Shown here piece after piece: positions 1 through 26,643 of a DNA stretch of 27,200 nucleotides. Position numbers and translations under genes: made by a program. The stretch comes from a virus. Location of the stretch: positions 1 to 27,200 of IMG/VR virus record IMGVR_UViG_3300047549_000018; one strand, given 5' to 3'. Positions within the stretch are counted from its first letter, which is position 1. Every line of letters begins with the position of its first letter. Below the pieces are notes generated by a model. It ran no database searches. It saw only the letters and a program-made list of their open reading frames with translations, and was not told where the DNA came from.

Positions 1-1017
1 AGTAGCCTTTAGTTCTTCCACTTCGATCCAACACAAGGGATGCTGATTTTTAAAATCATCAGTATCTCGCTCAGTTGGCACACCCTTGAACTTCTTGCGC
101 TTTACAGTAAGTTCTGCATAGTTTGCAACTTCACCAAGATTGTGCTCTTCAATATCCGAGAACACACCTTTAGTCTCAGTGATTACCTGCTTAGAAAACC
201 AGTCATAAACAGCTTGGAATTCTGGACGATCAAACTTGTAGTACTTGAACAAACAGTCTTTAATTGCGATCTTGTCTCGCTTAGTTTGCATCATGACTTT
301 CTTACCGTCTTTGAACTTATGCAGCTTAACACCTGAATCCTCAAGCTTCATTTGAAAGTATTCAGCACCAATCTTTGTATCGTCTGCATTGGTGAAGTCA
401 CGACCAAGTTTAATACTCAGATTGTCTCTGAATTCAATCTGTGTCAATGACTTGAGATAAAACGCAAGAGTACAGCGTACATCATGCATGTTGTAAGTTT
501 TCAGCTTATCAATCTCAGCATCTGTCAATTCAGCATCTACAGCATACGGTAGGTCTTCGATGTTGTCCATACGCATATTAAATTCCAACATCTTTAGACC
601 AGTGGCTTTTGCCTTGTTGTTAAAGTGATGAATACGGTACAAGTCAACTTGTGGGACAATCTGTTCATCTGTTTTGATACTATGACCGAAACCATTATCT
701 TTGAAAGAATCAATCTGCTTTTGTGCAAGCTTGTGTACAGCAGCAGCAACTTGCTTACCACTCTTAGCTTCCCAAGACCTACGATTGGTCAGTACTTCAT
801 GTAGGATGGGATAATCGAAACCTACGTTATTAAACCCCACCAAACGACCTTCCGTAGCTTCAATGTGATCTACACAAGCATAGATACGGTCAAGCTCATT
901 TGTGCGCTCAGAAACCTCAAATACTCGTGCAAACTTAGCATCTGCACGAATGACAGCAAACGTAAACGCTGACTTGTACGTTTCAATGTCATAAATCCAG
1001 TCTCTTGTCAAATCCAT
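1..1017 (-). CDS. DNA polymerase, N-terminal 3'-5' exonuclease part (partial)
   Basis: The frame is open from an ATG at 1017 to the window edge, so about 339 residues are visible and the C-terminus is missing. The N-terminus carries the three exonuclease motifs of a proofreading DNA polymerase: Exo I as WIYDIET near residue 10, Exo II as GFNNVGFDYP near residue 65, and Exo III as YNMHDV near residue 190. The polymerase palm lies outside the window, so family A or B cannot be decided. A GGAGAAG ribosome site precedes the ATG. It is the next gene after the primase-helicase on the same strand, as expected in a phage replisome cluster. A stand-alone exonuclease is possible but unlikely, because the frame continues well past the exonuclease domain. 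Confidence 0.85.
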   Translation of the reverse strand, partial: MDLTRDWIYDIETYKSAFTFAVIRADAKFARVFEVSERTNELDRIYACVDHIEATEGRLVGFNNVGFDYPILHEVLTNRRSWEAKSGKQVAAAVHKLAQKQIDSFKDNGFGHSIKTDEQIVPQVDLYRIHHFNNKAKATGLKMLEFNMRMDNIEDLPYAVDAELTDAEIDKLKTYNMHDVRCTLAFYLKSLTQIEFRDNLSIKLGRDFTNADDTKIGAEYFQMKLEDSGVKLHKFKDGKKVMMQTKRDKIAIKDCLFKYYKFDRPEFQAVYDWFSKQVITETKGVFSDIEEHNLGEVANYAELTVKRKKFKGVPTERDTDDFKNQHPLCWIEVEELKAT

Positions 1018-1077: not shown

Positions 1078-2796
1078 TCAATGATTATTTAACCAGTCAT
1101 CCAAGCTGTGCAGTGTATGGGTGGCGTTGTCGTAGTAGATGAAACCAGCAGGACCAGTCAAACCGCATACACGATTTTTAGTTACACTAATCTCAGTACT
1201 ATTACGTGTGATTTCACTTTCAGCCATCTTATCACGTTTGAGCAAGATGTTAGCAGATGCAGATTTGATAATCGTACTAGAACCCATAATGTTTTGCTCA
1301 CTATCAGCACCGTTTTGACCTGCAGGTGTCTTACGCATGTGGTTAATGAAGATAAAAGTAACACCGTGACTCTTGATAAAGCCTTTAGCCCACTTCATGA
1401 ATTCAGCTTGCTCTTCATTGGATAGACCATCTAAGATATCTTGCAATGGGTCCAAAACAATTACTTTAGCACCACAAGCAGAGACTAACTCTTCAACAGT
1501 ATCTTGAATCTCTTCAATACTACCATCACGATTGTCTAGCAGATAAAAACGTGAATCACCATCTTCTTTAATGGTCAATTCCTTTGCTTTTTCTACTACA
1601 CGATCTGTAGTAAGGTACGCAATCTTTTCATCTTGACTTTCGATCAATGCAAGCTTTTTCTCTAGGTGACGAGACAGGAGTACTTCACCGTACTGACCTG
1701 CATCAAGTTCCATTGATACAATACCTACAGTATGTGGAGAGTTAAAAATCCAGTAGTAAATCAATTCATTCACCAGTGTAGTTTTACCGATACCTGTATC
1801 AGCAGCGATGTTGACAATGTGACCTAAAGGCATGCCACCAACAAACAGCTCATTGAGCTTTTCCATGAAAGGTGGAAATGGAATCTTAGCAACTGCAGTT
1901 TGACTGATGATGCGGTCGTACAATTTACTAGATGCTAACACACCTACAGGAACTTGTTTCTTAGCTTCATAGAAGTCATTGATAAACTCTTTAACTTTGT
2001 CTTTCTCAAGATATTCATTTGCGTCTTTATAACGCATAGGCATAATCTTGACTTTACCTTTTGGTAGTACTTTTAAAAGTTGTTCTGTGGCAGTTTGACC
2101 AGCTTTATCGTTATCATAAGAAATGATGATGTTCTCAAATGAATCAAAGAAACGATATTGGGCTGCAATTTGCTTTTGTGAATTAGCACCTGTAGTTGGA
2201 GATACTACAGCAGTTTCAAAAACACCACCTTTTTCTTGATTGTATTCTTCCAGCATTTGATATGCAGATAGCGCATCAATTTCACCTTCGGTAATTACTA
2301 CATAGCGACCACCACGGTTAAATTTGAACTGCATGAACAATTCACAATCTGCACCAGTACGACCCTTAGAGTAGAAATTCTTAGGTACTTCACGGACCTT
2401 GTAACCTACGAGTTGACCTTCTTGTGTACAAGGATAGTACTGTTCGATAACTTCGCCTGTATCCTCTGCAAAAGCATGACGTACACCAAACTTAGTATAT
2501 ACGTTGTCATCAATGTTACGAAAACCTTTTGCCTTAACAGAAGTTTCAGATTTAATATCTGCATTCTCTTCTGGTGTCAGAGCAGGTTTTGTACTTGGTT
2601 TAACTTCCATATTCTCCACTTCCTTTTTAACGCTAGAGCGAACCCTAGATGGTTTCTTTTGATTTGCTTCTTTGAACTCTTCAGATGGTACTGTGTGCTC
2701 ACAAACAAAGCAATGCGAAGAACCACCTTCATACACTGCTTTACCATCTGATGATCCGCAAGCTTCACAACTAGTATGTTTGATGAAAGCTGCCAT
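1078..2796 (-). CDS. Bifunctional primase-helicase, T7 gp4-like
   Basis: The 572-residue protein has the domain order of T7 gp4. A zinc ribbon with C10, C13, C29 and C32 would read the template for primer synthesis. A TOPRIM primase core follows, with VITEGEIDAL around residues 167-175 and the acidic SYDNDKAG around 226-233. The C-terminal RecA/DnaB-like helicase has a Walker A motif ADTGIGKTT at 332-340, a Walker B-like VIVLDPLQD and a downstream INHMRK sensor motif. It would prime the lagging strand and unwind DNA for the adjacent polymerase. Its length matches full-length T7 gp4 (566 residues). The ATG has a strong AAGGAG site. Confidence 0.95.
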   Translation of the reverse strand: MAAFIKHTSCEACGSSDGKAVYEGGSSHCFVCEHTVPSEEFKEANQKKPSRVRSSVKKEVENMEVKPSTKPALTPEENADIKSETSVKAKGFRNIDDNVYTKFGVRHAFAEDTGEVIEQYYPCTQEGQLVGYKVREVPKNFYSKGRTGADCELFMQFKFNRGGRYVVITEGEIDALSAYQMLEEYNQEKGGVFETAVVSPTTGANSQKQIAAQYRFFDSFENIIISYDNDKAGQTATEQLLKVLPKGKVKIMPMRYKDANEYLEKDKVKEFINDFYEAKKQVPVGVLASSKLYDRIISQTAVAKIPFPPFMEKLNELFVGGMPLGHIVNIAADTGIGKTTLVNELIYYWIFNSPHTVGIVSMELDAGQYGEVLLSRHLEKKLALIESQDEKIAYLTTDRVVEKAKELTIKEDGDSRFYLLDNRDGSIEEIQDTVEELVSACGAKVIVLDPLQDILDGLSNEEQAEFMKWAKGFIKSHGVTFIFINHMRKTPAGQNGADSEQNIMGSSTIIKSASANILLKRDKMAESEITRNSTEISVTKNRVCGLTGPAGFIYYDNATHTLHSLDDWLNNH

Positions 2797-2811: not shown

Positions 2812-3825
2812 TTATTCATTTTTTAACAACCATGAGTTACTGATGCACTTGAATGAGCGATCATGTACAGTGTTACTCTTCAGTACAACACCTTCACGGT
2901 TGCTACCGTTGAGTACAGACTTACCCTCTGCATATTCTAACAGACTTTGAATCGTTTGTTCTTTAATCTCTGTAGCTTCGCACAAGATAGGCACGTGCTT
3001 TAATCCCAAACGCTCACAAGCCGCTTTAAGTTGTACAGGTAGAATGTATCGACCAGTATGCACATTGTACATGTCATAGACGTAGAAGTCAAGTTGAGTT
3101 TTGTACTGATTACCTTGGATGCCTTCACCGATCATCTCACCTTGAATAGCCATACCCTTCATGAAATTGCGGCGCATGATATCTTCAATTTGAAACTTAC
3201 GTGCTATTTTCCAGAATGAATTTGCTTCATCTTCTTTCAAATCTAGGTTACGTGAACATACATGAAATACGTCTTCATCATCTAGATAGAACGTGCAAGA
3301 TGAACCATCGAGTTTTTCTGTGATTGACCACGTATCTTGTTGGTACTGCTCAAAAGATCGTGTAAGGTTTTGAATACGCTCTTGATCAGTCTTTGGTACA
3401 AGCGCAGGGAAATTACCTCGTGCCATACCAGCGAGTTGAGCATTCATTGGTTTCTCCCATTTGATAATACCAAGTACATCTGTTACGTCTGTACCTTCGA
3501 TATCTTCAAGATCAAAAAATACTACTGTAGACAGAGGTAACAGAAGACCTTGTGAGATTTGACCACGTAGTTTAATTGTACGTAGACGTTCACCCTCTAC
3601 ACCTTCAAATACTTTTGGAAAGTGTCCAGCTTTGGTTAGAAATGGTGCAAGGGCTGTTGGAACCCACGAATCCGGTTCAGCATATACAACCAAATCGTTA
3701 ACTTGGTACTTACCAACTGAGTCAACTACCCACCAACCATCTACACGATAAGCACAAATTTTATCTGCACCTTCAATAGATTTTACTTCTGCAATTTTAC
3801 GAATTGTTGCTAGTTTTCTTTCCAT
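2812..3825 (-). CDS. RNA ligase, Rnl5/DraRnl (DRB0094)-like
   Basis: The N-terminal ~100 residues look like the OB-type domain of the Deinococcus RNA ligase family: KLATIRKIAEVKSIEGAD, then LVVYAEPDSWVP. The C-terminal part is a nucleotidyltransferase, with motif I EKLDGSS (adenylated Lys about residue 171) and a motif IV-like REGVVLK near residue 310. Total length is 337 residues, close to the known family member of about 340. Rnl5 enzymes seal nicks in duplexes when the 3'-OH strand ends in RNA. The gene starts inside the 3' end of the HNH gene and is followed by the primase-helicase. A role in repairing nicked RNA, or RNA-DNA junctions during replication, is inference. Confidence 0.88.
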   Translation of the reverse strand: MERKLATIRKIAEVKSIEGADKICAYRVDGWWVVDSVGKYQVNDLVVYAEPDSWVPTALAPFLTKAGHFPKVFEGVEGERLRTIKLRGQISQGLLLPLSTVVFFDLEDIEGTDVTDVLGIIKWEKPMNAQLAGMARGNFPALVPKTDQERIQNLTRSFEQYQQDTWSITEKLDGSSCTFYLDDEDVFHVCSRNLDLKEDEANSFWKIARKFQIEDIMRRNFMKGMAIQGEMIGEGIQGNQYKTQLDFYVYDMYNVHTGRYILPVQLKAACERLGLKHVPILCEATEIKEQTIQSLLEYAEGKSVLNGSNREGVVLKSNTVHDRSFKCISNSWLLKNE

Positions 3826-4213
3826 AATTTAACCACTCCTTTGCTTTTTCAAGATTATAAACTGAATCTCTAAATAATCCTAGACCTTTATTACACGCAT
3901 TGCATAATAAACCTCGAACATTACCTGTCTCATGATCATGGTCAACTGCTACAACATCTAGAGATTGGCCTTGACGATTTTCTGGTAATTTCATTTGTAT
4001 ATTACAAATTCCACATCTACCTTTAAACACAATCCAAAGTGTATTGAAGTCATCAAGTGAAATTCCGTATTTCTTCATGAGAGAATGATTTCTTTGCATT
4101 TCTCTTGTCGAATCAAACTTCTTTCTAAGTTTATACGAATGTTCTTTACAACGTATTCCAGTTGTGATTGTATTGCAATTTTCTTCAATACATTTTGATC
4201 GTTTTCTAGTCAT
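3797..4213 (-). CDS. HNH endonuclease, recombination endonuclease VII-like
   Basis: The 138-residue protein has the endonuclease VII signature: GRCGIC (first zinc pair), the catalytic DHDHETG, and RGLLCNACNKGLG (second zinc pair), followed by a helix with LEKAKEWL. T4 endonuclease VII resolves branched DNA, but short relatives inserted between replication genes are often free-standing homing endonucleases. It overlaps the DNA ligase stop by one base upstream and the RNA ligase start by 29 bases downstream, so it is translated in the same unit. Resolvase and homing roles cannot be separated from sequence alone. Confidence 0.85.
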   Translation of the reverse strand: MTRKRSKCIEENCNTITTGIRCKEHSYKLRKKFDSTREMQRNHSLMKKYGISLDDFNTLWIVFKGRCGICNIQMKLPENRQGQSLDVVAVDHDHETGNVRGLLCNACNKGLGLFRDSVYNLEKAKEWLNYGKKTSNNS

Positions 4214-5109
4214 TACATGTCATCTTTATGTCGAATGCCAACCAGTACTGGAAAGCGAGGTAGATTATAACCTGTTCCAACGTCAAAGTACTTAACTTTT
4301 GCAAGTTGACCCATCAATGTTTCCCTGCGTTCCCACAAGTCTTCTCGAATTGCGTCAGTCATACCACTACCACAACTGAATGTATCGCCTTTAGAGGTGC
4401 GTAGGATCAACGATCCCATTGTATCTAGGGCTACCATACCATCTTTAGCTGTAGAGCGTTCTGTGCGTCCTAGCTCATTAATCTTTGCAGCGTTAGTATT
4501 TGTGTACTTAGGCTCCCAACCAATGATTTCAAATTCATTATCTACAAAGCGTTTGACCTTTTGTAGTTCTGGATTTTTAGTACCAGAGCGACCGCATTTA
4601 TATGGCGCATTTTCATCTCGTAGCATTACACCTTCTGCACCCATTTCAAGCATTTCAGCTTCGAAGTCATCAATATCCGACATATCTACTACAGGATAGT
4701 GTGGAAGCATTACGACTCTTTGAGGTACACCTGTCAATGTCTGCAGACGTTTATAGCGGTTAATCCAACTCGCTGTCGGGTGATACCTGTCGAACACATA
4801 GAACTTAAAATCAGGTTCACCACTCTGACGCATAACTCCAGAAGTACTTTGATTGAATACATCAGGTGCATTCTTATCGCCTACGATCAGTTCACCATCC
4901 ATACCTTCTAAAATATGCGCCCAATAGTTTACATAAGCTTGTATCTCCTTGTTTGGAATCGGTTTGAGACTGCGTGAGTAAGCCACACCCATAAATACAA
5001 TACAGCGAATACCATCAAGTTTTTCAGACATGTACATGCTAGACGGTTGTGTCTTGACTTTTGTATGCTCGATTGCTAATTGCGGCTTAAAGCCTTCTGG
5101 AATTGTCAT
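4213..5109 (-). CDS. ATP-dependent DNA ligase
   Basis: This 298-residue nucleotidyltransferase would seal Okazaki fragments. Motif I is SEKLDGIRC, with the adenylated lysine at residue 30. Other family marks are MDGELIVGD (motif III region), EGVMLRD (motif IV) and LQKVKRF (motif V), followed by an OB-fold-like tail containing EIIGWEP. The small size fits phage minimal ligases. I chose the ATG at 5109 because GGAG sits 7 bases upstream; a TTG one codon earlier is too close. The ATG overlaps the stop of the preceding small gene. Confidence 0.93.
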   Translation of the reverse strand: MTIPEGFKPQLAIEHTKVKTQPSSMYMSEKLDGIRCIVFMGVAYSRSLKPIPNKEIQAYVNYWAHILEGMDGELIVGDKNAPDVFNQSTSGVMRQSGEPDFKFYVFDRYHPTASWINRYKRLQTLTGVPQRVVMLPHYPVVDMSDIDDFEAEMLEMGAEGVMLRDENAPYKCGRSGTKNPELQKVKRFVDNEFEIIGWEPKYTNTNAAKINELGRTERSTAKDGMVALDTMGSLILRTSKGDTFSCGSGMTDAIREDLWERRETLMGQLAKVKYFDVGTGYNLPRFPVLVGIRHKDDM

Positions 5110-5219
5110 CAATGTTCTCCAATCTTAAAAATGCGATAGCGTTTGTTACCAATCTTCAAGTATACACCAGCATAGTAGAAAATTTTAGGGCTTTGATAAA
5201 TAATTTTTGGGAAAGTCAT
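5109..5219 (-). CDS. Small hypothetical protein (36 aa)
   Basis: An ATG-started frame of 36 residues overlaps the stop of the upstream 45-residue gene by 4 bases. Its own stop overlaps the DNA ligase ATG. The product is rich in Tyr, Lys and Ile (contains KIIYQSPKIFYYAGVYLKIG). The junctions suggest translational coupling into the ligase. No family is recognised. Confidence 0.55.
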   Translation of the reverse strand: MTFPKIIYQSPKIFYYAGVYLKIGNKRYRIFKIGEH

Positions 5220-6152: not shown

Positions 6153-6950
6153 TTACTTAACGTTAATCATTCCCTTGAAGTCCATTGGTACAACAATAGT
6201 CTGTACACGACCTGCTGCAATACCTTCTGCAATCTTCATTTGTGCTTGAGCTTGCATATAAGCGATAGACTGACCAGAGTTAGAACTTAGTGCAGCCATA
6301 CGTTCAGATTCTTTCTTAGCGATATCAACTTCAGTTTGCTTAATCTTTAGTTCATTTTGAGCACGAACATAGTTGGTAGCAGACTGCAAGATTTCAGCGT
6401 TAGGCAGAATATTACGCACTTGCACAACTGTCAATGATACAGAGTTATCCAGTTTTTCAGCTTTTAGTTGATCATGTACAGTATCACGAATTTGCTCTTC
6501 GATCTTAGCACGGTTATCTGCAACTTCAAGTGACTTATAACCACGCACAACCTTGTATGCTGCGTTATTAACCAACGTACTCATATAAGAGTGCATCAGA
6601 TAGATATCACCTTTGTGTTCAGTGTGAAAGCTGCGACTCTTGGTTGAATACAGTTCCGCAACAGATGTTGAATTCAAACCATACACAACTGTAATATCAA
6701 AGTCAGCAAGAGGACTGTTATCTGCAGTCATTGGTGTTTTATTGTCGAGATTAACCGCAATATCTTTTGTTGGAAAAGTAAGAATTGAACCAACTAAAGT
6801 TTGATTCCATGTTCCCGGTTGAAGCTCATTACCTTCAATTTGTTTTGATGCATTGACCCGTACACCAACTTCACCAGTTTCAATACGAGTGCAACCTACA
6901 GAAGCCAAAGCAACTGCAACAGCAAGAATAAGACCTTTGATAAATTTCAT
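6153..6950 (-). CDS. SPFH/band 7 (prohibitin-like) lipoprotein
   Basis: The N-terminus is a lipoprotein signal peptide: MKFIKG, a hydrophobic stretch and a lipobox LASVGC with the modified Cys at residue 20. The mature part begins RIETGEVGVRV, the start of a band 7 domain. It ends in a long Ala/Glu/Lys/Gln helix (about residues 185-240), as in prohibitins and HflK/HflC, which form membrane rings and bind FtsH. The protein is probably anchored in the periplasmic membrane leaflet. I chose the ATG at 6950 because AGGAG lies 5 bases upstream; the in-frame GTG at 6956 overlaps that site. SPFH proteins occur in other phages; the function here is unknown, perhaps control of host proteolysis or the envelope. 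Confidence 0.88.
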   Translation of the reverse strand: MKFIKGLILAVAVALASVGCTRIETGEVGVRVNASKQIEGNELQPGTWNQTLVGSILTFPTKDIAVNLDNKTPMTADNSPLADFDITVVYGLNSTSVAELYSTKSRSFHTEHKGDIYLMHSYMSTLVNNAAYKVVRGYKSLEVADNRAKIEEQIRDTVHDQLKAEKLDNSVSLTVVQVRNILPNAEILQSATNYVRAQNELKIKQTEVDIAKKESERMAALSSNSGQSIAYMQAQAQMKIAEGIAAGRVQTIVVPMDFKGMINVK

Positions 6951-6965
6951 AAACACTCCTTTTAG

Positions 6966-7820: not shown

Positions 7821-8157
7821 ATGTATTCCTTATTGATTGACTTACTTGACTACATGAACGCAAGTTAAACTTACATATAACATTTGTTATACTATGTAAT
7901 ACACTATATAACTTGTATTAAACTCATGTTATAACTTTAGTTATTACTTCAGTTACTTCAGTAATGAACTTCAGCTTGAACCCCGAGCTGTCACCCTTCG
8001 CCGTACCCTTCCGTCCCTCGTCCCGTTTGGGATTGTAGCTCAAGTTCAACTCTTGTCAAGTACTTTGTGCAAAATAAATTTATTTGTACTAGATGTTGCA
8101 AAGCTCAAAACTTGTGCTATGATTCAGGCTTCAACTTAACAACCGAAAGGAACTTAC
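7821..8157. promoter_or_regulatory. Divergent intergenic control region
   Basis: These 337 bases separate the leftward and rightward arms and hold no convincing gene. The left part (7861-7965) is AT-rich with repeated GTTATA/TATAAC words and a dyad ATAACA-TT-TGTTAT at 7877-7890 that could be an operator. ACTTCAG occurs three times between 7945 and 7975. A C/T-rich GC island follows (7981-8035), including a TCCC-GTTT-GGGA hairpin near 8021-8032. A sigma70-like promoter faces right at 8096-8123. I could not place a leftward promoter with confidence. Confidence 0.6.
8096..8123 (+). promoter_or_regulatory. Sigma70-like promoter for the rightward arm
   Basis: TTGCAA at 8096-8101 and TATGAT at 8118-8123 are separated by 16 bases and lie 35 bases before the first rightward start codon. 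It is the best -35/-10 pair in the divergent region. Confidence 0.6.
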
Positions 8158-10871: not shown

Positions 10872-11293
10872 ATAAAGAAAAACCTACGCTATTCCTAATC
10901 CGTGGAGTCCCCGGTTCAGGTAAATCAACGTTTGCAAACCTACTCAATCAATATGCGTTGACACTGATCAATTTGGAAGCTGATGATTATTTTACAAAGT
11001 ATAATACTGAGACTAGCACTTTTGATTATGACTTTGATCCAACTAAACTAAAAGATGCACATCAGTGGTGTCAATCTACTACTATGCATTTTCTAGAACA
11101 AGGGTTTAACGTTTCGGTGTCCAATACCAGTGTAACTGAATGGGAAGTCGCACAGTACATGGATATTGCAAATGCTTGTGGTGCTAATTTTGTATCTATG
11201 ATTGTAGAGAACTACCACGGCGGCAAGAACGTACATGGTTGTCCTGATGAAAAAGTACAGCAGATGAAACGTAAATTTTTTGTACAACTGTAA
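10868..11293 (+). CDS. P-loop polynucleotide kinase-like protein
   Basis: A 141-residue P-loop kinase with Walker A GVPGSGKS (residues 13-20), then NLEADDYF (acidic pair at 39-40, where polynucleotide kinases have the catalytic Asp). DAHQWC, VSNTSVTEWEVAQYM and NVHGCPDEKVQQMKRKF follow. This series matches the N4BP2-like branch of 5'-OH polynucleotide kinases. It lacks the phosphatase domain of T4 Pnkp. It sits directly before an Rnl1-type RNA ligase and a phosphoesterase, so its likely job is adding 5' phosphate to broken RNA before ligation. The substrate is inferred, not seen; another small-molecule kinase is possible. Confidence 0.82.
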   Translation: MNKEKPTLFLIRGVPGSGKSTFANLLNQYALTLINLEADDYFTKYNTETSTFDYDFDPTKLKDAHQWCQSTTMHFLEQGFNVSVSNTSVTEWEVAQYMDIANACGANFVSMIVENYHGGKNVHGCPDEKVQQMKRKFFVQL

Positions 11294-11303
11294 AGGATCA
11301 ATG

Positions 11304-12206
11304 ATGCTGTTAACATACGATCAACAGATGAATTTAGTCAATCGTGGTTTAGCTACGATGAAAAATGATGGCAAATACACTACGTTCAAATACCATCGTA
11401 GAGCCATGTACGATTATCTGTGGTATGACGTGCCTGAGTTGTTAGAATCGCGTGGACACGTATACTACAATAGCACAAAAGAACTAGTGCAAGCTGCACC
11501 ACGTAAGTCCTTCAATTACCTTGAACGTGGATATTGGAGTGAAATGCCTTTGGATACTCCTGTTGCAATGTACAAGAAAATCAATGGTTTTATGGCTTGC
11601 GCTACAATTCATAATGATGAACTGGTAGTATCTACTACTGGTACTACTACCAGTGAATATGCTCAGTGGGCTAAGGAGTTGCTATCTAGTGATTACAATC
11701 TCCATCTCTATGACTTGGTGCTTGAATCAGAGGTTACTACATTATTTGAAGTTGTAGTACCGCAAGACCCACACATCGTAAAAGAGCGTGAAGGTTTGCA
11801 TTTGCTTGGTGTACGTGAGAAAGCTAACGGTAATTTTCATCCTATGGGTGAACGTCCAATTACTTGTAGTCTTGAACAAGCACTAGAGATTGCAAAGCAT
11901 GATCGTGGTGAAGGTTTTATGCTATATCCTTTAATTGCTGATGCAGGTAATCCATTTGGATACCACAATTACAACCACTGCTGTAAACTAAAGACTCCAT
12001 ACTATGTTGGTAAGAAAAAGTTGATGCGCATGACAGCAAAGAATGTTGAAATCATGTACAAAAACGGCTTTGAAATTGCAAATTCCTTACCAGATATGTG
12101 GTATGATGTACCTCGTATGATCGTGAGTAACGTCCATAAAGACACATGGTTGGCTATGAACGATCAACAACGCAGGGTTGTAATTGAAGATTTTATGGGA
12201 GTGTAA
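11304..12206 (+). CDS. RNA ligase, T4 Rnl1-like
   Basis: A 300-residue ATP-dependent ligase. APRKSFNYLERG precedes motif I YKKINGF, the K-x-N-G form typical of Rnl1/Trl1 ligases, with the nucleotidyl lysine at about residue 92. Downstream are FEVVVPQDPHIVKEREGLHLLGVR (motif III/IIIa region), GEGFMLYPL (motif IV) and CKLKTPYYVGKKKLMRM (motif V). T4 Rnl1 reseals tRNA cut by host PrrC. The kinase gene ends just upstream and a phosphoesterase follows 2 bases downstream. AAGGA lies 6 bases before the ATG at 11304; the ATG at 11301 would leave only 3 bases. Confidence 0.88.
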   Translation: MLLTYDQQMNLVNRGLATMKNDGKYTTFKYHRRAMYDYLWYDVPELLESRGHVYYNSTKELVQAAPRKSFNYLERGYWSEMPLDTPVAMYKKINGFMACATIHNDELVVSTTGTTTSEYAQWAKELLSSDYNLHLYDLVLESEVTTLFEVVVPQDPHIVKEREGLHLLGVREKANGNFHPMGERPITCSLEQALEIAKHDRGEGFMLYPLIADAGNPFGYHNYNHCCKLKTPYYVGKKKLMRMTAKNVEIMYKNGFEIANSLPDMWYDVPRMIVSNVHKDTWLAMNDQQRRVVIEDFMGV

Positions 12207-14199: not shown

Positions 14200-14418
14200 A
14201 TGATAAATGAAATTGACATCAAAGATTGGCAAATGCTGACAACACCTTTAAAACTACAGGAACTAAAAGAGGGTGATTTCTTTAGTGTATCAGGTAGTGA
14301 TAAAGTCTTTAAGCTAATTGCAGTTGCAAATGAAATTGTTTTTGCTGAAACAGCAGACATTTTTAATGCTTTTGCATTGCCTCGGTTCATGGATGTATTT
14401 GAATGGATTAAGAAATGA
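14200..14418 (+). CDS. Hypothetical protein (72 aa)
   Basis: A 72-residue protein starting MINEIDIKDWQMLTTPLKL, with GDFFSVSGSDKVFKLIAV in the middle and ending VFEWIKK. It starts after the ThyX stop with AAAGGAAGG in front and overlaps the HU-like gene by 4 bases. The strand-rich centre suggests a small beta fold. Function unknown. Confidence 0.7.
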   Translation: MINEIDIKDWQMLTTPLKLQELKEGDFFSVSGSDKVFKLIAVANEIVFAETADIFNAFALPRFMDVFEWIKK

Positions 14419-14747
14419 CTACAAAAAGAAAATATAAACCGCAAAATCGTAAAGCAGTTACTTTTAAAAAGTTGATTGAAGCTGTTGCAGAATCTTGTAA
14501 CTATCATAAGTATGAAGTTGAAGATGTACTGGTGCATCTGAGCAAAGTACTACAAAAGATTCTTGTTGAGGAAAAATCTGTACGATTAACAGGTCTAGGT
14601 AAAATCAACATGAAAAAATTAACTACACGTTCTACGAAAGACAAAGATGTGTGGTATGATACGTTCAGATTGTCAGTGCAACAAGACACTGCAATGAAAG
14701 AGTACTTAAAGGAAAATTATGGAAAATCAACAGACCTTGCCAGTTAA
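14415..14747 (+). CDS. HU/IHF-like DNA-binding protein
   Basis: The first 75 residues follow the bacterial HU/IHF plan: KLIEAVAESCNYHKYEVEDVLVHLSKVLQKIL forms the paired helices and SVRLTGLGKINMKK the first strands. The arm and C-terminal part are divergent (STKDKDVWYDTFRLSVQQD). HU proteins bend and compact DNA as dimers and help replication initiation and transcription. The basic N-terminal extension (TTKRKYKPQNRKAV) may add DNA contacts. Start overlaps the upstream gene by 4 bases. Confidence 0.75.
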   Translation: MTTKRKYKPQNRKAVTFKKLIEAVAESCNYHKYEVEDVLVHLSKVLQKILVEEKSVRLTGLGKINMKKLTTRSTKDKDVWYDTFRLSVQQDTAMKEYLKENYGKSTDLAS

Positions 14748-21703: not shown

Positions 21704-21890
21704 GCGTAAACTGAAGTATTTACCTAGATATAACCAAGGTGGTAATAATCTATTTGCAGGACATTGTTGTAGAGGTTGTTACTTTGGTTATGGTCGATTC
21801 TTTAGTCTACAGCATTTATACAAGCATGAAGCTGCAGAAGATAATTATGATGGTAAACTGAAAAAGTATTGGAGAGATTATGAGTCTTAA
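21681..21890 (+). CDS. Small basic Cys/aromatic-rich protein (70 aa)
   Basis: A 70-residue protein with a basic start (NIRKQRKRKLKYLPRYNQGG) and GHCCRGCYFGYGRFFS, a Cys-rich turn that might bind metal. GGAAAGG lies 6 bases before the ATG at 21681; an ATG at 21678 is also possible. It overlaps the gene before by 23 bases and the macro-domain gene by 11. Function unknown. Confidence 0.6.
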   Translation: MNIRKQRKRKLKYLPRYNQGGNNLFAGHCCRGCYFGYGRFFSLQHLYKHEAAEDNYDGKLKKYWRDYES

Positions 21891-22371
21891 TTATCTCAAG
21901 CATGTTAAAGGTGATTTATTGCAGTTAGCTCGTGAAGGGCATTTTAACGTAATTGTACATGGTTGTAACTGCTTTTGTACTATGAGCAGTGGTATCGCCA
22001 AGCAAATCAAACAAGAGTATCCAGAGGCTTATGAAGCTGATTGTGCGACTGTTAAAGGTGCAGTAGATAAGCTAGGTACTTACTCTGTGATGCATGGTGA
22101 ACAATTTGATATCGTCAATGCATACACGCAGTATTCCTACAATCGCTACGATCAACCTAAAAACGATCGTTTTGACTATGAATCTTTTAGTAAAATTTTG
22201 CGTTCTCTTTCAAGGAACTACAAAGGATGTAACTTCGGTTTTCCTTACATTGGTATGGGATTAGCCGGTGGTGACAAGGATGTTATTATCGCTCAACTCG
22301 AAATGTTTGCTTTAATTGTTGAACTTGGTGGTGGTGGTACGGTTACATTGGTTGAATACTCAAAAGATTAA
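21880..22371 (+). CDS. Macro-domain protein (ADP-ribose binding)
   Basis: The 163-residue protein is a single macro domain. The start YLKHVKGDLLQLA is the usual first strand, VIVHGCNCFCTMSSGIAKQIKQEYPEA holds the adenosine and catalytic loop, and NFGFPYIGMGLAGGD is the phosphate-binding loop. Such domains bind or hydrolyse ADP-ribose derivatives, including ADP-ribose-1''-phosphate, a by-product of tRNA splicing by Tpt1, and can remove ADP-ribose from proteins or nucleic acids. The GFPYIGMGLAGGD form resembles Appr-1''-p phosphatases. A role against ADP-ribosylating host defences is an alternative. Confidence 0.85.
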   Translation: MSLNYLKHVKGDLLQLAREGHFNVIVHGCNCFCTMSSGIAKQIKQEYPEAYEADCATVKGAVDKLGTYSVMHGEQFDIVNAYTQYSYNRYDQPKNDRFDYESFSKILRSLSRNYKGCNFGFPYIGMGLAGGDKDVIIAQLEMFALIVELGGGGTVTLVEYSKD

Positions 22372-22426: not shown

Positions 22427-22510
22427 ACTGAGATAGCTTAATGATAGAGCGGTGGGCACACAGGTAACGACGACTACCCATAAGTGCAGGTTCAACTCCT
22501 GTTCTCAGTA
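22427..22510 (+). tRNA. tRNA-like gene with a 20-nt anticodon loop
   Basis: The acceptor stem pairs ACTGAGA with TCTCAGT perfectly over 7 bp. The D arm pairs GCTT with GAGC (10-13/22-25 positions). The T arm is GCAGG-TTCAACT-CCTGT, with a normal 7-base loop. The discriminator is A, followed by CC without the final A. Between D and T arms a 5-bp anticodon stem, GTGGG with CCCAT, is in the right place, and AAGT is the variable loop. The loop at 22457-22476 has 20 bases instead of 7, and no simple deletion gives U33 plus an anticodon. In the D loop the usual GG is GA. It could be an interrupted, degenerate or repurposed tRNA. Confidence 0.7.
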
Positions 22511-24099: not shown

Positions 24100-24522
24100 A
24101 TGGCTTACGTTACACAAGAAGTTATCACCAAAGCTCGTATTGCATTGAAAGCACTCAATAAAGAGTACGGTGTCAAAGCTACATTGTCTGGTAAAAATGA
24201 TAGTACATTGTATTTGACTATTGCAGAAGGTAGCATTGATTTTATTGGTAATTACTGCGAGAATGTAAAAGCCAAACGTATCCAGCATGATACACAGCAA
24301 GTTATCGATTGGGTTACAAAAGAACAGAATGTCAGCGTAAACCAGTATTATCTTGACAGTTCCTTTTCAGGTGTTGCACTGGAATATCTGGAGAAAGCTA
24401 AGGCTATCATGTATGTTGATCATTGGGATAAATCTGATATTCAGAGCGATTATTTCCACTGTGCGTACTATGTGAATATCAATGTTGGTCGTTGGAATAA
24501 GCCGTATAAATTTCAAAATTAA
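24100..24522 (+). CDS. Conserved phage/plasmid protein, LPD29-like (140 aa)
   Basis: The sequence reads AYVTQEVITKARIALKALNKEYGVKATLSGKN, then IDFIGNYCENV, VNQYYLDSSFSG and a tail AMYVDHWDKSDIQSDYF-HCAYYVNINVGRWNKPY. This agrees with a large-polyvalent-protein-associated domain (LPD29) found alone in phages and plasmids. Its biochemical role is not known to me. It is the last gene of the rightward arm; its own promoter lies upstream and an intrinsic terminator 9 bases downstream. Confidence 0.82.
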   Translation: MAYVTQEVITKARIALKALNKEYGVKATLSGKNDSTLYLTIAEGSIDFIGNYCENVKAKRIQHDTQQVIDWVTKEQNVSVNQYYLDSSFSGVALEYLEKAKAIMYVDHWDKSDIQSDYFHCAYYVNINVGRWNKPYKFQN

Positions 24523-24531
24523 AAATCCTAC

Positions 24532-24570
24532 GGCCCTTTCGGACTAAAAATCCGTTAGGGCTTTTTCTTT
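24532..24570 (+). terminator. Intrinsic terminator ending the rightward arm
   Basis: GGCCCT pairs with AGGGCT and the inner CGGA with TCCG, with a symmetric TT/TT internal loop and a CTAAAAA loop. TTTTCTTT follows. It begins 9 bases after the LPD29-like gene. Confidence 0.88.
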
Positions 24571-24664
24571 TGTAAAATCGTCAAAATCCGTGATATCAAA
24601 ACAAATCCAAAAACCTACTTGGGTATTTGCGAAACAAAAACGGTAAAACTAATTAATCGGCGGC

Positions 24665-24856
24665 GAATATAAGCGAACGGTTATATAAGCATATTCATAT
24701 ATAAGCGTTGACTTATATAAGCGTTGACTTATATAAGCGTTGACTTATATAAGCATATTCATATATAAGCGTTGACTTATATAAGCGTTGACTTATATAA
24801 GCATATTCATATATAAGCGTTGACTTATATAAGCGTTGACTTATATAAGTACATAA
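24665..24856 (+). repeat. Array of 16-bp AT-rich direct repeats (iterons)
   Basis: Ten units lie in exact 16-base register from 24681 to 24840, in three forms: a = TTATATAAGCGTTGAC, b = TTATATAAGCATATTC, c = ATATATAAGCGTTGAC. The order is b c a a b c a b c a. Degenerate in-register units flank both sides (24665-24680 and 24841-24856). A further copy with 14 of 16 matches lies among the DnaA boxes at 24955-24970. All units keep the core ATATAAG. Confidence 0.95.
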
Positions 24857-24874
24857 TCATATACGAATATAAAG

Positions 24875-25003
24875 TTATCCACAGGTTTTCCACAGGATCA
24901 AAGTTATGCACAGACCAGCAAGTATCATGCCAGAGTTATCCACAGGTTTCAGTCTTATATAAGAGTTGAAATTGTGCATAAGTATAACTAGCACTGTGGA
25001 TAA
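24875..25003. other. DnaA-box cluster, candidate origin of replication
   Basis: Perfect TTATCCACA boxes lie at 24875-24883 (+), 24936-24944 (+) and 24995-25003 (-). One-mismatch boxes lie at 24886-24894 (TTTTCCACA, +), 24904-24912 (TTATGCACA, +) and 24973-24981 (TTATGCACA, -). Six boxes within 129 bases next to an AT-rich repeat array is the classic form of a DnaA-dependent theta origin. The repeats could be binding sites for an initiator encoded elsewhere, or the unwinding element. Confidence 0.8.
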
Positions 25004-25246
25004 CTTCTCCCGATACGGTAGCGGCTTGGACAACAAAAACGGCTAAAAACGGGGTTTTAATCGATTCTAGGGGCATGGATAAAATTACAGTATTAAATTT
25101 TTAACTGTAGTACTGGCACGGGTTTTGCTACGCGTACGCGTGCGCGTGCATTGTATATAGTAAACGAAAATTGAAAACAAAGGTGTACATAGGGTTTTCA
25201 CTTGAAAAATAATTTGCGAGTTGCAGAAAAACAACGGTTTTATGTA

Positions 25247-25252
25247 TATAAT
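25247..25252 (+). promoter_or_regulatory. -10 promoter element after the origin
   Basis: TATAAT preceded by TATG lies 49 bases before the start at 25301. TTGCAG at 25221 is 20 bases away, which is long for a -35. Confidence 0.45.
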
Positions 25253-25300
25253 TGATCCCATGGTGCAGCGATAGGGCGACACCAAAACAAGGAAACCAGA

Positions 25301-25498
25301 ATGAAACTTTCCAAAATCAAACCCGGCGAATACGTTCTCACCGGTCACATGGCAAACGAGCTAGTGCAGTACACTATCGAAAAGAACGCCCATTTGTGGC
25401 AAGTGAATAAAATTTATGGCACTGGCCCGGATTTCAACTTAGGATATGATACAATGAGGGAAGCCAGCGCGGCAGTGATTGCCTACGCTGACAACTGA
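25301..25498 (+). CDS. Hypothetical protein (65 aa)
   Basis: A 65-residue protein (KLSKIKPGEYVLTGHMANELVQYTIEKNAHLWQVNKIYG, ending REASAAVIAYADN). Three strands and a final helix are likely. AAGGAAACCAGA precedes the ATG. It is the first gene past the origin. No family recognised. Confidence 0.7.
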   Translation: MKLSKIKPGEYVLTGHMANELVQYTIEKNAHLWQVNKIYGTGPDFNLGYDTMREASAAVIAYADN

Positions 25499-26555: not shown

Positions 26556-26572
26556 TTAAATAGTGTTTTCTT

Positions 26573-26640
26573 TATAATCTTCGGTTTAATCGCCGGAGAT
26601 TATAGGGGATAATATTATCCGATTTTCTCTCAGGTTTAAT
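26573..26640 (+). promoter_or_regulatory. Structured leader with TTTAAT-loop hairpin, copy 2
   Basis: A 12-bp stem (26573-26584 with 26593-26604, one T-G pair) closes the loop TTTAATCG. A perfect 14-bp palindrome, GGATAATATTATCC, lies at 26607-26620, then GATTTT at 26621-26626 and GGTTTAAT at 26633-26640, three bases before the ATG at 26644. The stem sequence differs from copy 1 while the layout is kept. Confidence 0.7.
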
Positions 26641-26643
26641 CCA

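Follow-up and report, generated by a model that had tools for sequence, protein, structure and literature searches.

Where does a freshwater phage that carries a T7-like primase-helicase begin to replicate its DNA, and what fires that origin? The question is raised by a non-coding element at positions 24664 to 25003 of the IMG/VR virus record IMGVR_UViG_3300047549_000018, where tandem units of 16 base pairs (bp) stand beside a cluster of DnaA boxes. The 27,200 nucleotides analysed (positions 1 to 27,200 of the record, hereafter the window) are a fragment of the phage genome, and the related contigs may also be incomplete. To our knowledge, an origin that depends on host DnaA is not usually assumed for a virulent phage encoding a T7-like primase-helicase. 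We consider it probable that the element is the replication origin of a freshwater phage family, two isolated members of which infect Comamonadaceae, and that it would be fired by host DnaA, most likely with a regulator of the SdhR type at a central palindrome. The initial annotation of the locus had already pointed to an origin-like element; it did not include the invariant palindrome that lies among the DnaA boxes, nor the resemblance of that palindrome to a host operator.

The six DnaA boxes of the initial annotation, three perfect and three with one mismatch, were confirmed by a box scan between 24875 and 25003, abutting the array on its right. The first three lie on the plus strand: a perfect TTATCCACA (24875-24883), whose position is kept in relatives, then the one-mismatch boxes TTTTCCACA (24886-24894) and TTATGCACA (24904-24912), the latter perfect in Limnohabitans phage DC31 and others. 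From this third box the conserved spacer GCAAGTATCATGCCAGAG (24918-24935, plus strand), common to DC31 and the relatives L007, L016 and L017 (L and G numbers are our own handles), leads to the fourth, a perfect TTATCCACA (24936-24944, plus strand) forming the left flank of the core palindrome. The last two boxes are inverted, on the minus strand: TTATGCACA with one mismatch (24973-24981) and a perfect TTATCCACA (24995-25003), which follows at 13 bp, likewise in relatives. No perfect box occurs in the window outside the cluster (0.34 expected). One-mismatch boxes alone are not enriched by number across the window (12 versus 9.25 expected), so significance rests on their clustering, which is beyond chance.

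The layout of this cluster is conserved. BLAST located the element in DC31, which infects Limnohabitans sp. DCL3, at 20.2 kb and in Curvibacter phage P26059A, which infects Curvibacter IMCC26059, at 72.4 kb, as unannotated DNA in both; DnaA boxes go unmentioned in the papers on these two phages. In IMG/VR, a pattern scan yielded 13 contigs and a 17-base scan yielded 40, of which 30 have DnaA boxes beside the 17-mer and 26 have them in the layout of the window. The boxes are thus retained, at near-fixed spacing, in DC31, P26059A and at least 26 IMG/VR contigs, and their offsets from the palindrome are constant to a base or two in most relatives. The primase-helicases of phages with the conserved spacing are 94% to 51% identical, and 31% in one. 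Perfect boxes lie inside the cluster in 5 of 5 cases in DC31, and among the other larger relatives in 3 of 3 (G301), 4 of 4 (G307), 4 of 5 (G306 and G305) and 5 of 6 (G302); the figure is 1 of 2 in P26059A and its near-twin G303, P26059A having merely two DnaA boxes within one mismatch. In ten contigs (L137, L140, L144, L145, L148, L151-L154 and L162) the 17-mer AGTCTTATATAAGAGTC occurs without DnaA boxes nearby.

Between the inverted boxes lies an isolated core palindrome, AGTCTTATATAAGAG (24951-24965), of the form AGTCTTATATAAGA followed by G or C, which includes a lone copy of CTTATATAAG at 24954-24963. A scan by DnaA-box layout alone, designed to avoid bait bias, returned 27 contigs. In 15 of these, representing 14 distinct sequences, AGTCTTATATAAGA occupies the gap between the inverted boxes with zero mismatches; in the remaining 12 the DnaA cluster lacks the palindrome. 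In these 15 relatives, whose detection did not depend on the palindrome, its first 14 bases are thus identical, while adjacent bases vary. Of 14 related records, 8 have a single copy of CTTATATAAG, the one at the DnaA-box site. The palindrome is the most conserved, invariant part of the element in relatives.

This palindrome resembles a host operator. Its sequence CTTATATAAGAC is part of the predicted operator TCTTATGTCTTATATAAGACATAAGA of SdhR, a GntR regulator of the HutC subfamily (PMC4494728). The phage core consists of GTCTTATATAAGA followed either by G, as in the window, with 13 of 14 bases identical to the operator core GTCTTATATAAGAC, or by C, with 14 of 14 identical (L118, L122, L128 and L136). 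Exact copies of GTCTTATATAAGAC were found in 17 of 60 Burkholderiales genomes, and copies with at most one mismatch in 55 of 100. Most sampled exact host sites have a GntR gene on one side and, usually, malate dehydrogenase on the opposite one; one further site precedes isocitrate lyase and one ATP synthase subunit I. The ATP-synthase promoter of L052, a Burkholderiales metagenome-assembled genome, contains on the opposite strand AGTCTTATATAAGAGTCTGTGGATAA, 26 bases identical to phage contig L012. By our own rough estimate, the chance that a 7-base half-site matches any of several hundred host motifs is a few per cent, and a coincidental agreement of palindrome and host operator appears unlikely. 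In four other phage contigs (L012, L013, L138 and L146), one of which, L138, has terminase and portal-like genes, AGTCTTATATAAGAGTC directly abuts a DnaA-like box; this is a different layout, like that of the L052 promoter.

The array to the left of the cluster is more variable. The whole element is housed in a 778-bp non-coding stretch (24523-25300) between the genes at 24100-24522 and 25301-25498, whose counterpart in DC31 is a 931-bp gap. Within it, TTATATAAG units follow each other in exact 16-bp steps from 24664 to 24855 (plus strand), filling 12 positions in register. At one mismatch or fewer, CTTATATAAG has 14 sites in the window, whereas shuffled sequences have 1.17 on average and never more than 4; 11 of the 14 form the array at 24680, 24696 and onwards to 24840, one is the isolated copy in the palindrome and two lie elsewhere. 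A degenerate twelfth unit, CGAATATAAG, opens the array at 24664. The unit order proposed at the outset, a b c a a b c a b c a, holds if counted from this position, and the perfect register also stands; the count of ten units does not, as there are 11 from 24664 and one more, with a different tail, at 24840. The array is a candidate unwinding element, a candidate binding-site array, or both; its DNA is AT-rich and, when the 100-bp stretches of the window are ranked by stability, falls within the lowest 0.4%, with a similar rank in relatives.

Direct repeats thus adjoin the DnaA boxes in the window, as they do in DC31, L004, L017, G312 and L003, which also have 16-bp units. Elsewhere the array is absent or swapped for other repeats. 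To the left of the cluster, L007 has 8-bp TATAAGCA repeats in place of the 16-bp units; L016 has 20-bp repeats containing CAGTC, a type that DC31 has alongside its 16-bp units; and in phages such as P26059A and L009 there is no array. Such CAGTC repeats stand left of the DnaA cluster in several relatives, among them L016 and L005 (7850-7990). The constant parts are the core TATATAAG, identical in 22 of 22 distinct array units from five phages, and the 16-bp step; the linkers differ, and the array limits in this comparison were set by a TATAAG pattern, so that the unit ends are somewhat biased. The suggestion that TTATATAAGCGTTGAC is a fixed initiator site accordingly fails, and of the two initiators proposed, host DnaA or a phage protein, host DnaA is retained as likely. 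Most likely, the 16-bp array is a lineage-specific, fast-evolving extension built from the same TATATAAG core as the palindrome.

Related sites also occur away from the cluster. In G302, whose primase-helicase is closest to that of the window (94%), both contig ends carry a tandem array with a period of 49 bp (L183:1890-2096 and L184:1-110). Each unit contains CTTATATAAG and CTTATATAAT at a distance of 16 bp; no such array is present at the corresponding place in the window (26556-26643). In DC31, a second set of three sites resembling CTTATATAA, spaced at 16 bp, lies in non-coding DNA 3 kb from the DnaA cluster (L093:17332-17373).

Which protein would act at the cluster? In agreement with the initial annotation, Pfam and PHROG scans, which covered those window proteins that exceed about 75 amino acids and two small downstream genes, all from a genome fragment, revealed no Rep-type or otherwise recognisable initiator. 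No DnaA gene was found in the window and no C-terminal, DNA-binding DnaA domain in 14 related records, which makes host DnaA the likely initiator. In the same 14 records no GntR domain scored above cut-off, and G313 gave one weak partial GntR hit; a phage-encoded DnaA or GntR protein was thus rejected. The T7-like primase-helicase that had been noted at this locus is borne out by a match to phrog_239 (8e-166; 1078-2796, minus strand), and next to it, cut by the window end, lies the N-terminal part of a DNA polymerase with a PolB-type 3'-5' exonuclease (1-1017, minus strand; phrog_1252, PF10108).

From these components a sequence of events can be proposed. Host DnaA would bind the conserved box cluster, whereupon the AT-rich DNA of the central palindrome and of the array to its left would open, and the primase-helicase and polymerase encoded by the phage would load. 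A host GntR/HutC regulator of the SdhR type would most likely sit on the palindrome between the inverted boxes, as a gate or as a helper, and would link initiation to the state of the host tricarboxylic acid (TCA) cycle and ATP synthase. That host SdhR binds the palindrome and acts on phage initiation is, judging from the operator match, quite possible. We put forward more tentatively that the fixed-place palindrome may be a working operator for this TCA-cycle and ATP-synthase regulator, through which host energy metabolism would directly gate or assist initiation, and that the site was multiplied into the 16-bp array in some lineages. As a guess, the HU/IHF-like DNA-binding protein encoded at 14415-14747 (plus strand; PF18291, PF00216, phrog_379) could bend the origin as an architectural helper.

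Several observations weigh against a DnaA-fired origin with an SdhR site. The GC skew change that the initial annotation had named as a check near 24.9 kb does not occur, and the skew does not change sign at the element: it switches near 8 kb in the window, and its minimum in DC31, at 35.1 kb, is the point of divergent transcription, whereas the origin-like locus of that phage is at 20.2 kb. Skew follows transcription in these genomes, as is common in phages, and was discarded as an origin mark; its absence here is thus weak evidence against an origin. Three other stretches of the window are less stable than the array region, the least stable being the divergent non-coding stretch at 7821-8157, at the skew switch. 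The outer operator half-sites TCTTAT...ATAAGA are absent in the phage, the window flanks being GTTTCA and TTGAAA (several host operator sites likewise lack one or both), and the array units have no GT...AC operator flanks. Furthermore, the SdhR operator used for comparison is a published prediction rather than a footprint, and the host sites are known at the level of the order Burkholderiales, not for the actual host genera. Finally, DnaA boxes, repeats and palindromes together are also known from the injection-stop signal of phage T5.

This last likeness suggests that the element might instead halt DNA entry after the first segment has been transferred. The T5 signal is described as having DnaA boxes, repeats and palindromes (PMC13250531), and the DC31 box cluster has weak BLAST matches in the left terminal repeat of T5, around position 6.1 kb. 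These matches, however, comprise 27 bases, mostly two DnaA boxes, with E values of 0.04 or worse, and the cluster described here combines a fixed dyad arrangement with a 14-base palindrome that does not vary; we hold an injection-stop role to be improbable. An iteron origin, in which an unrecognised phage initiator would bind TATATAAG in 16-bp steps and the likeness to SdhR would be a coincidence of AT-rich palindromes, accounts well for the constancy of TATATAAG despite varying linkers and for L003, which has the array and lacks the core palindrome; many phage proteins, moreover, belong to no known family. Yet some relatives, P26059A and L009 among them, lack the array altogether, the agreement between core palindrome and host operator extends to the flanking G and T, and no Rep-type gene was found among the window proteins scanned, so that we regard such an origin as unlikely.

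The palindromes might also be decoys: by titrating host SdhR during infection they would relieve the repression of TCA-cycle and ATP-synthase genes, and the DnaA boxes would titrate DnaA or form a separate origin. The operator match, the multi-copy arrays of several relatives and the off-cluster arrays of G302, with their 49-bp period and paired sites, and of DC31 speak for this idea; these latter arrays fit a decoy or copy-control role better than an origin. A single copy in most relatives, at one fixed place between DnaA boxes, nevertheless fits a local function better, and the array units match the operator more weakly; we give the decoy little credence. Still less probable, to the point of being very doubtful, is a transcription control region or a set of tandem promoters. 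The element does lie between co-directional genes, and TTGACT and TATAAG are repeated in the array, but a promoter scan found no sigma-70-type site there (5 sites overall, versus 6.9 in shuffles), leaving tandem promoters unsupported, and about 340 bp separate the palindrome from the next gene.

Other sources for the arrangement were tried and rejected. The dnaA loci of 30 Burkholderiales genomes do not contain the palindrome at one mismatch or fewer, so the element is no copy of a dnaA-side oriC. Of 300 Burkholderiales genomes, a single one contained a 24-base pattern pairing palindrome and DnaA box at two mismatches or fewer, and this was the genome that had supplied the bait; among 33 host operators, 4 have a DnaA box no more than 40 bp away, and two of the 4 are one locus. 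No similar plasmid DNA was found, and no known RNA element except a transfer RNA (tRNA).

The same element, then, is present in the window, DC31 and P26059A, and it combines features of several known systems. Dense TTATCCACA boxes in both orientations beside AT-rich DNA are shared with bacterial oriC and other DnaA-box origins, whereas the fixed layout around a GntR-type palindrome sets the phage element apart from oriC. Iteron plasmid origins of the P1, F, RK2 and pSC101 type have tandem repeats beside DnaA boxes and AT-rich DNA; the phage element is alike in all three, and differs from them in its 16-bp steps, in an array that is optional within the family and in having no cognate Rep gene among the window proteins scanned. 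With proteobacterial SdhR operators it shares 13 to 14 of the 14 bases of the GTCTTATATAAGAC core; unlike them, it is placed between DnaA boxes, far from gene starts, and is without the published outer half-sites. Like the T5 signal, it is a non-coding part of a phage genome in which DnaA boxes occur with repeats and palindromes, while common sequence is limited to the boxes.

The gene adjoining the element on the left (24100-24522, plus strand; phrog_10415, function unknown) has a homologous neighbour in DC31 and L004. Elsewhere, this one phage fragment encodes two RNA ligases and an ATP-dependent DNA ligase (2812-5112 and 11280-12206), a protein with an SPFH domain (6153-6956) and another with a macro domain (21880-22371). 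Its tRNA gene (22427-22510) scored 54.5 bits with Rfam and was missed by ARAGORN.

If the element is indeed an origin fired by host DnaA, origin firing in these abundant freshwater phages would depend on the cell cycle machinery of the host. If, in addition, SdhR binds the palindrome, there would be a direct link, at the level of DNA, between host energy metabolism and phage replication.
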